Shown here: one piece after another, positions 1,792 to 6,083 of the stretch
Numbering within the stretch: position 1 is the first letter of the stretch
Layout of the letters: each line of letters begins with the position of its first letter
Source: Utricularia gibba
Taxonomy: Eukaryota; Streptophyta; Magnoliopsida; Lamiales; Lentibulariaceae
Assembly: GCA_002189035.1 (NCBI GenBank)
Contig: NEEC01000007.1
Coordinates: 2,666,001 to 2,730,000 of the forward strand
DNA: 64,000 nucleotides
Direction: 5' to 3'
Made by a program: the position numbers and the translations under genes
The notes under the pieces: generated by a model
Seen by the model: only the letters and a program-made list of their open reading frames with translations
Databases searched by the model: none
Told to the model about the DNA's origin: nothing

Positions 1792-3666
1792 ATGGGCGGC
1801 GATGGTATAAGTGCATCTTCTTTAGCTGGTAGTGGCGTTTTTTTTAACTTCATAAGAAGCTTTATTTTCCTAGACTTGTGTTGTGTGGACGTACTTTATA
1901 CAAAAATTCGTCATTTTGTGATCACGAGAATGAGTTCTTTGTCTTGCAGTTAACTACGCACTTGATAGCGATGTTTCCAGGTGCTTTTATGTAGTTCACG
2001 TGCAGTCGCTTTCTGATCACTTTGAATTTTCGCTTATTTTCTGGTATGGTTCTTGCGGCTTAGTGATGGCAAGTGCGGATTACTGAAGGATGAGTTTTCC
2101 GGTACTGGGCACCTTGATGCATTACTTTCTGAAGCTGGAGAGAGGCAGAGCGCAAAAGTTTACGCTGAAGTTATGAGGACCTACGAGGATCTTCAATTTA
2201 GAATTGAATCTTTGGACGAGACTAGAAAGAAGATTTTAAGGTATGCTTCATTTTTTCTAACCATTTTGGTTGTAAAACATGCGGTGTTAATGCATTTGAC
2301 TAGAGTTTCTGAAATTGAGCTGGTGCCAGTTTGGTTATTTAACATGTGACTACAAACTTCTCGTTGCATCTTTCAGCTACAAGCCTGGTTTATGGGCTAA
2401 TAACTCAGGCAATGTAGATTTCAGTCAGTCCCACAACTTGGATTGCACTACATTTCTAGTTATTGGGCCAAGAGGATCTGGGAAAAGCAGCCCTATCAAT
2501 ACAATTTCTCGAGTTCTTGATTTGGATGTTTCTGTATCAGGAAAAGCACAAGTGTCATGTATATACCACGACCTTTTTCTTGTTTCAAAGTGAGTCCATT
2601 GGCATCAAACTCCCTTACTTTTGGTCATTATTTATGCAGGTAACTCTTCAGAAGATGGAACTTGTTTCCTATATGAGTACAGGTTCCCGAAAGGTTCAGG
2701 CTCTTTCTGTTTATATGACACCCGTAGTTTGTCAGATGATTTGCATGAGAATGAAAAAATGCTTCAACGTTGGATGAGACAAGGTGTTCGCCATGGGGAA
2801 CTGGTTCAGAGGTTTTACTTAGACATATATTTGATCAGCTAGCTTTGTACACGATAGCAAAGTAAAATTTCTGTATTTTCCAGGAAATCTGATGATGTGC
2901 ATTTAAAGGCTCGCATGAAGCAGAAGGCTCGCAGGGGCTGGTCTTACCGTAAGTCCCGAGCTGTAAATTTCGTCATTTTCGTTGTAAATGGTCTATCCGT
3001 GCTAGAATCAATGATGAGCCCCAGTGGTACCAAGAAACAGTACGCAGTGAAGATATCTGCAGATTTTCACAATGCAATGCTGTCATTCCAAGGTACCAAC
3101 ACAACTCAGTGTTGGTATCCCTCCTGCAAGCCAGATTTTTGATGTAATGCTCTTGTCCTCTTTCTTTTGTTCTCAGTGTCGCTGTTGTGCTCTCAGATGA
3201 TAAGCCTGTTGTTGTTGTAACTCATGGAGATCTTCTTCCGCTTGCTGCACGTGCAAGAATCCGTATTTTCCTGGGGAATTTGCTCGGTATCCCTCCTGCA
3301 AGCCAGATTTTTGATGTCCCAGGTACACAACACAACTCATTCAGGCTTCATCCATAACTGCCAACATTCCCTCCCCTGAATGATTACTCTTCCATGGCTC
3401 GCTCAGATAGTGATGATCCAGCCACCACCATGGCCGTTCTTGATATGTTAACATACAGCCTTGAACACGCTGATAGATATCTGTACTCCCAAACCCCCCA
3501 TGCACTAGCCAGATTGCGGATCATGCTATCCTCTGCAGACCATGCTATCCTATGGTGTGTTTTTGTGGTTACGATGATGGCGATCATGTACAAGATAAAT
3601 CCCCTGTCCACTGAATCCGAAATGGATGTCGATTGGCACAGAATTCGCCATCTGTGGTCGGACTAG
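1792..3666 (+). CDS. P-loop NTPase-like protein with C-terminal membrane anchor (uncharacterised)
   Basis: Eight exons can be joined in frame: 1792-1804, 1950-1980, 2064-2240, 2377-2558, 2640-2811, 2884-3092, 3197-3322 and 3407-3666. They encode about 389 residues starting MGGDVNYALDSDVS. A Walker A motif, GPRGSGKSS, lies near residues 104-112. FCLYDTRSLSDD near 160 is in the position of a Walker B/G3 element. VVVVTHGDLL resembles a G4-type (T/N)KxD region, with HGD in place of KxD. A hydrophobic stretch, AILWCVFVVTMMAIMYKI, about 40 residues from the end should be a single tail-anchor-like transmembrane helix. The layout suggests a GTPase-like domain facing the cytosol on a membrane. I recognise the fold but not the named family, and nucleotide hydrolysis is inference. 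The seventh exon must use the acceptor at 3196 to keep frame, because the nearer AG at 3176 would break it. Confidence 0.75.
3114..3317 (+). repeat. Exact 32-bp exon fragment repeated in the preceding intron
   Basis: The 32 bases at 3286-3317, which form the 3' end of the seventh exon of the P-loop gene, occur identically at 3114-3145 inside the intron before that exon. A second shared word, GGTAC..AACACAACTCA, flanks both copies (near 3093 and 3323) but on opposite sides. This points to a local duplication or rearrangement rather than chance. Confidence 0.8.
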
Positions 3667-3824: not shown

Positions 3825-4253
3825 AAACACCTCCGGATGCTTGTATAAGTTTTTGAGCATCCTAGTGACGTTGCAATAATGTTTGGATCACTAAGCATAA
3901 CAAGTAAATTCTATGAATATAAAAATTTGTTTGGTGCAGTTTCAAAAAATAATTTTAAATAATTGATTTTAGAATCATTTCAGTTTTTTTTTGGAGTAAG
4001 GGTACTCCAACTTCTAAAAGAATTAAATTATTTTGCTATTTCAAACTTATGTGAAACATAAATAGCACGTATTTTATTTGATAATCACTTCTAAAAGTGC
4101 TTTAATTGAATCTGGAGCTTCACAAAACAGACCTTAAGAGAAAAGCTACGAAAACCGAATTTTGGAGTTCTTTTTTCACTGGCAATGTTGTATAATGCAG
4201 AATGCAGGGGATCAGAACGAGGATGAGGACGTTTTTGGGATTGTAGTATGGGG

Positions 4254-5928
4254 TAGAGGTGGGTTCGGTTCGAACCGGAACCGTGGTTTGAACCGAAACC
4301 GTCAATTCCGATTCCGGTTCGATTCCAGGAGGTGGATGTCCGTACGGTTTCGGTTACATACAGTTTCGGTTTGGTTCGGCAAATTTGGAACCGTGGAACC
4401 GACGGTTCCGACCTGTGTGTGAACCGTACTGTTCACGGTTCCAAACCGAAATCGTCGGTTCGGAACCGAAAAAAATTTACAAAAAACATAAAAAAATTAA
4501 AAAATTAGAAAAAAATTAAAAAAAATAAATAAATGTATATTATTTCAGACACTTTTTTCAAACACCCATACGATGGAAGTGAGTGCCTGGAAAATCTTCT
4601 GAAACACCCATTACCAGACACAATGACAATAGATGTGGATGCCTGGAAAATGATCTCAGGCGCCCTCATAACACTCTTACATGAGGCATGAGCAAATGCG
4701 GGTGGCTAGGGAATGGTCTCTATCTTTCAAATATTCTTCCCGGATACTCACAAGCCAATGTGGGTGTCTGAAAAAATGTAATTTTATTTTATATGTTTTC
4801 AATTATTAATAATTTTATCACTTTAATAATTGATTACTTTTTTTTCTAGTAGACAATTATGTTGTTGTTAATGTTAAATTCGTTGAATTCTCATATGCAT
4901 CGTGTGAAATATGCTCTAGTGAATAGTGATCCTTTAAATTCATTTTGGAGGCATGTATAATGATTTCTAAGGGTGCCTCTAATGCCTCGGCAACGTGAGC
5001 CTCAGAATTAGGGTTGTCGTTCAAGGTCGTCCAGACACTTTGATCCATTATTGAGGGTGTCTGGTATCTTCTCTGGAATCTGAACACCCTTAACGATGAC
5101 AACATGTACTTTAGAATTAGGGCTGCTGTTAGAGATTGTCCAGGCAATTTGATCCGTTATTGTGGGTGACTGAGATTTTCTCTAGAGGCTGGATACTCTT
5201 AACGAATATTAAGAGACATGAAATATATGATATTAATTTTGAAAATATAATGTATTTAATCATTCTTATTTTTTGTTTCCAAAATATATGAAATAGATGA
5301 TGTTTTTATTTTAATTTGAAAAATACATAATACTTACAAAAGATTATTTAAAACAACTATATAAACATCTTCATTTTAAAAAAATAAATATATAAATAAT
5401 AATTCCATTCATTTTATATGATTTGTAATCTTGTTGTATTTGTTTTAAAAAAATTAATTTTATCAAATATATATTCAAATGTTAATAATTTAATTATTTA
5501 TTTCATTTATTTAAGTCACAAATTATATTGATTTTAATTATACTTTATTGAGATATTTTATCAAATCATTAAAGTTATAGTTTTTTATAAATTAATATAG
5601 TATATTACATAATATATCTAGTTAAATATAAAAATTAATATTGTTAAATATATTGTTTGATAATATTTAAATATAAAAAAATTAATAATTATTACAAATT
5701 TCATTGTCAATTATAATGATTTATATGGGTGTCTGGAAAACACCTACAAATAGTAATCGATCGGTTCCAGTTCCGGTTACGGTTCGATTCGCGAATCTCG
5801 ATTCGGTTCAAAGTTTCATCCGTACGGTTCTGAACCAAAACCGAAACCGTTGTCTACAGTGAATCGCGGTTTTGAAACCGTTCGGTTCCTAACCGAAACC
5901 GTAGGGTTCGGAAACGAACCCACCTCTA
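4254..5928. mobile_element. Non-autonomous hAT-superfamily DNA transposon with intact ends
   Basis: The left end reads TAGAGGTGGGTTCG and the right end CGAACCCACCTCTA, a perfect 14-bp terminal inverted repeat. The flanks carry the same 8 bases, GTATGGGG, at 4246-4253 and 5929-5936. An 8-bp target duplication and TIRs starting TAGAG (YARNG) are diagnostic of hAT elements. The outer ~200 bp on each side is packed with GGTTCGGTT/CCGAACC words in both orientations, which are candidate subterminal transposase-binding sites. The interior is AT-rich, contains a 109-bp tandem repeat and has no transposase ORF, so the element depends on a transposase in trans. The clean TSD and unbroken TIR suggest a fairly recent insertion. 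A neighbouring gene effect cannot be judged from sequence. Confidence 0.9.
5002..5205. repeat. Internal 109-bp tandem duplication within the hAT element
   Basis: Copies at about 5002-5096 and 5111-5205 share TAGAATTAGGG, GTCCAG, TTTGATCC and TCTTAACGA-type words in the same order and at the same spacing. The copies differ at roughly a quarter of positions, so the duplication predates the present insertion. Confidence 0.7.
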
Positions 5929-6083
5929 GTATGGGGAAGCGTTTTGCCGACAATGGAGGCATTTGCCTTCACTGTGTTGTGTACAAAACAAAAACTAAGC
6001 CAAAAAGGAGTTGGTTCCTCCTATATGATATTGAAAAATAGGAAGAAAAGTGAGAAAACGACCTCCGTTTAGGAATCATATGG

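Follow-up and report, generated by a model that had tools for sequence, protein, structure and literature searches.

A hAT element with perfect ends in the window

The window analysed here, a 64-kb stretch of Utricularia gibba DNA, contains a transposable element of 1,675 bp close to its left end. The features of the locus are listed below in window positions.

4246-4253, no strand: left copy of the target site duplication (TSD), GTATGGGG, read directly
4254-5928: non-autonomous hAT element, 1,675 bp, with 14-bp terminal inverted repeats (TIRs) and an 8-bp TSD
4254-4267, plus strand: 5' TIR TAGAGGTGGGTTCG, read directly, in keeping with the TIR pattern of plant hAT elements, with 61 exact copies in the 100 Mb searched
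4254-4840, plus strand: 5' end kept from the full-length element, some 580 bp, colinear with the C375, C304 and C2 copies at 80-88% identity
4266-4470, no strand: 5' subterminal CGGTT/AACCG array, 17 words per 220 bp, opening with the palindrome CGGTTCGAACCG at 4266-4277
4825-4850, no strand: internal-deletion junction, where the 5' block reads out and the 3' block reads in
4830-5928, plus strand: 3' end kept from the full-length element, some 1,090 bp, 85-86% identical to the C414, C375, C304 and C3 copies
4991-5096 and 5100-5205: two direct repeats of 106 bp within the retained 3' block, 75% alike
5760-5914, no strand: 3' subterminal CGGTT/AACCG array, 12 words per 220 bp
5915-5928, minus strand: 3' TIR TAGAGGTGGGTTCG, the inverted counterpart of the 5' TIR
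5929-5936, no strand: right copy of the TSD, GTATGGGG, read directly

The two TIRs were identical at 14/14 positions, and at 17/18 when extended. The window contains 88 inverted 14-mer pairs spaced by 100-15,000 bp, and of these only the pair bounding this element has a perfect repeat of 8 bp on either side. The perfect TIRs and TSD described in an earlier note on this DNA were thus read again directly; the range given there, 4246-5936, does hold the element but comprises the element proper plus both TSD copies. The left flank at 3946-4137 is a dispersed repeat, resembling many other genomic sites at 67-79% identity. Further GGGTGTCTGG/CACCCAT words were seen inside the element, and full-length copies have them too in the retained 3' block.

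Subterminal arrays are a family-wide feature

Counts of the words CGGTT/AACCG reached 17 in the first 220 bp of the element and 12 in its final 220 bp. The rest of the window averaged 0.18 such words per 220 bp and never exceeded 4. This agrees with the arrays of about 200 bp noticed previously at each end. An alignment of family ends (15 5' ends and 15 3' ends) revealed the same type of array throughout, with a variable number of units and fixed landmarks: next to most 5' TIRs, on their inner side, lies the palindrome GGTTCGAACC, and many 3' TIRs have its counterpart GGTTC-C/G-GAACC. The earlier note had regarded the tight cluster of palindromic words as unusual. Palindromes do occur, though in small number (CGGTTCGAACCG at 4266; CGGTTCGGAACCG at 4456, of odd length with one central base; GGTTCTGAACC at 5826), and the array is shared across the family in the layout typical of hAT ends.

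In maize Ac, end regions of about 200 bp carry AAACGG hexamers that the transposase binds cooperatively and that are required for transposition (PMC3260210). BED and Hermes-type domains of hAT transposases bind subterminal repeats, and Hermes-type regions also recognise TIRs (PMC8097297). By analogy, the CGGTT/AACCG words would be putative transposase-binding sites. The dense subterminal array is an ordinary hAT feature, and its layout matches that of known hAT ends (PMC3260210, PMC8097297).

Copies sharing the ends

Genome comparisons covered 100 Mb of the genome, in an assembly that may be incomplete. The 14-mer TIR TAGAGGTGGGTTCG was found at 61 exact sites, whereas the reversed control gave 0, and DNA matches to the whole element amounted to 80 pieces. 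The earlier note would have abandoned its reading if no other copies shared the ends; these 61 perfect sites dispose of that objection. At nine other copies with paired ends, the TSDs were 6-8/8 identical and the target sequences differed from copy to copy, which marks them as independent insertions that each generated an 8-bp TSD.

Seven of the 61 TIR sites had a common flank, TAATACAGGATACACATGGG, directly before the hAT 5' end; these seven ends seem to have multiplied within another repeat and not by their own transposition. Several contig pairs carried the same matches at the same spacing (C199/C414:474355, C41/C451:3877412, C16/C451:2497935 and C66/C451:3421299). They appear to be alternative haplotypes or duplicates kept in the assembly, by which the copy counts are slightly inflated.

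When the flanks of the window element were joined and used to search the 100 Mb for an empty site, the matches were the two filled flanks alone, with no empty paralogue. Beyond these, the left flank recurred as a dispersed repeat with 73-78% identity, and a section of the right flank had a single further match at 85%; neither spans an empty site. A literature search with the exact end sequences found no hAT paper containing such strings.

hAT transposase sequence in larger relatives sharing the ends

Matches from genome-wide Pfam searches with the hAT dimerisation domain, the hAT RNase-H-like fold and the BED finger were compared with the positions of the end matches. A number of relatives of about 8 kb had both ends in common with the window element and carried hAT transposase sequence (PF05699/PF14372). 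The coding relatives were as follows.

C375:567238-575240, about 8.0 kb: matching ends and hAT domains
C451:4119096-about 4127500: perfect TIR at 4119096 (5' end), PF05699 at E 2e-23 and PF14372 at E 2e-8
C304:604153-612377, 8.2 kb: TSD 7/8 identical
C304:438363-452135, 13.8 kb: TSD GTCTCAGA, 8/8 identical

In the C451 copy, whose 5' TIR is identical to that of the window element, the PF05699 and PF14372 matches fell within an open stretch of 330 aa, and the C-terminal part of the transposase matched the Hermes transposase (E 5e-14). The BED finger (PF02892) scored above the cut-off at C213:3333288 and C304:442779, just upstream of family transposase matches, and went unscored in the broken C375 and C451 copies. 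These domains bear out the hAT identity and the non-autonomy that had been proposed for the window element.

Every transposase copy found was broken: the 100 Mb searched yielded neither an intact transposase nor an autonomous copy, though an intact one may lie elsewhere. In the C451 copy the region upstream of the 330-aa stretch was split over several frames, and an insert of 1.55 kb (about positions 2005-3575 of the copy) separated the N-terminal from the catalytic regions. This insert has the short duplication AGGGGGTG at its edges, is absent from C375, and is a nested transposon. The C375 and C328 transposases contained stops or frame changes. The search proposed in the earlier note, for the TIR, for full-length copies and for an autonomous copy with a hATC domain, recovered the TIR sites, the relatives of about 8 kb and same-ended elements with PF05699, but only with broken transposases.

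The element arose by internal deletion

In comparison with the C375 copy, element bases 1-595 matched the 5' end and bases 577-1675 the 3' end, and about 6.3 kb, comprising the transposase and other sequence, was missing. In the relatives, the retained 5' block (4254-4840) lies upstream of the transposase gene. The crossover falls in a T-rich stretch of some 20 bp, where microhomology is limited to a few bases at most. Because larger relatives have the same ends together with transposase sequence, the window element is an internal-deletion derivative, in the manner of Ds from Ac.

Short derivatives with differing junctions were frequent in the family (the C2, C4, C413, C505 and C317 copies): C2 joins element position 572 to 755, and C4 joins about 619 to 1225. 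These different junctions indicate that short forms arose repeatedly. The junction of the window element itself had no second copy among the copies examined. One candidate, C413:1359852-1361521, had appeared to share it in one continuous alignment and was rejected, since its sequence around element position 580-660 is unrelated or 5'-proximal.

We are highly confident that the best explanation is a non-autonomous plant hAT element, derived through internal deletion from a multi-gene hAT parent of at least about 8 kb, mobilised in trans, and inserted here by cut-and-paste. This reading builds on established parts, namely the ends, the TSD, the larger relatives that combine these ends with transposase sequence, and the deletion structure. 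Among DNA transposons, internal-deletion derivatives are usually ascribed to repair that was interrupted after excision. The parent, with several genes and a length of at least about 8 kb, would have lost its interior in this way and kept its TIRs together with some 200 bp of subterminal repeats at either end; a transposase of the family would have moved the short copy in trans, and its cut-and-paste insertion at this locus would have created the 8-bp duplication GTATGGGG. We infer the step in trans for this copy, since the 100 Mb searched yielded no intact autonomous copy. As every family transposase copy found is broken, the window element is probably immobile now.

Alternatively, a full-length element may have inserted here and a host deletion may then have removed its interior, so that the short form never moved. 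In the 100 Mb searched no sibling shares the junction, so movement after the deletion is presumed and the interior may instead have been lost in place; the junction is private to the window copy, and about 4.6% private changes leave time for such an event at the locus. Against this, both ends are intact, the loss is essentially that of the gene region, and short derivatives are a usual product of the family. We consider deletion in place an unlikely course of events, yet one to be weighed seriously beside deletion before insertion.

Sequence divergence does not point to a recent insertion

Over the 3' block common to the copies, the window copy lay at distances of 0.097-0.168 from every other copy and had a terminal branch of 0.088; its nearest relatives were about 10% different. 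At 33 of 725 sites where the other copies agree, the window copy had a private change, and 22 of these 33 were C>T or G>A. Such a bias would fit an element that is silenced and methylated at its cytosines. Part of the divergence of the window copy may predate its insertion.

With 4.6% change per site, an 8-bp TSD would remain perfect with a probability of 47%, so TSD identity alone is uninformative on age. Identity of the TSD and the TIR pair together limits change after insertion to at most about 6.6% per site (95% upper bound), a figure that is optimistic because the copy was picked for its perfect ends.

The earlier note had taken the insertion to be recent, and mobilisable if an autonomous partner exists. 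The perfect TSD and perfect 14-bp TIRs, better than those of most copies, and the largely intact subterminal words speak for a recent, currently mobilisable insertion. Against it stand the distance of about 10% to the nearest relatives, the terminal branch, the private changes with their excess of C>T/G>A, and the broken state of all transposases found in the 100 Mb searched, while the TSD and TIRs permit the change calculated above. We therefore judge such an insertion very unlikely. Partners with matching ends do exist, but with broken genes only, and a recent insertion is neither shown nor needed. A perfect TSD and TIR pair gives no ground for the word recent without a comparison of copies.

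PF04195 open reading frames in the parent family

The full-length relatives had one or two ORFs matching PF04195 (Transposase_28; 'putative gypsy type transposon') downstream of the hAT transposase, at the following sites.

C375:570153-570542
C328:33917-34305
C304:446136 and 449885
C414:472897 and 470281
C1:4840848 and 4837140
C213:3036184 and 3039907

Within 12 kb of family transposases, 24 PF04195 matches were observed against 3.3 expected under random placement (at most 8 in 200 trials). The ORFs were on the transposase strand in 22/24 cases and lay 0.7-2.2 kb downstream, with several copies having them again at 4.5-5.9 kb. The first PF04195 ORF was largely open in 20 copies; its uncorrected pN/pS was 0.55 in frame versus 0.62 and 0.79 in the shifted frames, and the same comparison gave 0.53 for the transposase and 0.59-0.75 for a non-coding block. 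A general tie between PF04195 and hAT elements was considered and rejected: PF04195 outside the family lay near other hAT sequences 12 times against a mean of 6.2 expected (maximum 12 in 200 trials), a proximity about as expected by chance, and the other hAT families of this genome display no clear link to it.

The simplest reading is that a retrotransposon-type gene was captured ancestrally, before the family spread, and its products could be accessory proteins. A fuller proposal, which we regard as unlikely, makes the parent family a hAT lineage with its own extra PF04195 genes, acquired before its expansion and possibly accessory, from which the window element derives.

Relation to known hAT systems

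The window element and its family show the marks of the hAT superfamily. The TSD is identical at 8/8 positions, the short TIR is of the (T/C)A(A/G)NG / [T/C]AGNGNNG type (TAGAGGTG...), as in the plant hAT pattern [T/C]AGNGNNG (PMC6027215), and same-ended elements, the C451 copy and others, carry the dimerisation domain and the RNase-H-like fold, with the N-terminal BED zinc finger present in the family at the two sites given above. A chance inverted repeat or an element of another superfamily (CACTA, Mutator, PIF/Harbinger) has virtually no chance of being correct: nothing was found in its favour, 8-bp TSDs recur across the copies, and it is already refuted by the linked transposases, whose domains are hAT.

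The resemblance to maize Ac/Ds is close in organisation. The window element is Ds-like in that both ends are colinear with a larger coding relative and the interior is missing; Ds-del and Ds2 have likewise lost internal sequence but preserve their TIRs and, at either end, some 200 bp of subterminal repeats, with 8-bp TSDs and a C-terminal hAT dimerisation domain in the autonomous partner (PMC3260210). It is not Ac/Ds proper, since the TIR (TAGAGGTGGGTTCG versus the 11-bp Ac TIR) and the subterminal word (CGGTT/AACCG versus the AAACGG hexamer) differ. Ac is 4.6 kb long with one gene, whereas the full-length relatives here are 8 kb or more and have PF04195 ORFs in addition, and, unlike the maize system, this family has yielded no intact autonomous copy in the 100 Mb searched. 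Plant hAT families in Repbase, compared here by description, share the TIR pattern and also have -N forms produced by internal deletion (PMC6027215). Hermes, the house fly hAT with solved structures, is matched by the C-terminus of the family transposase but is a distant relative only, with different ends.

The window element is thus an ordinary hAT deletion derivative, belonging to a further plant hAT family of a known type, and it documents one more such family with deletion derivatives. hAT elements normally encode one protein. Gene capture has been called rare in hAT elements (PMC3260210), and on both counts the PF04195-bearing parent elements are the part of this family that specialists might follow.
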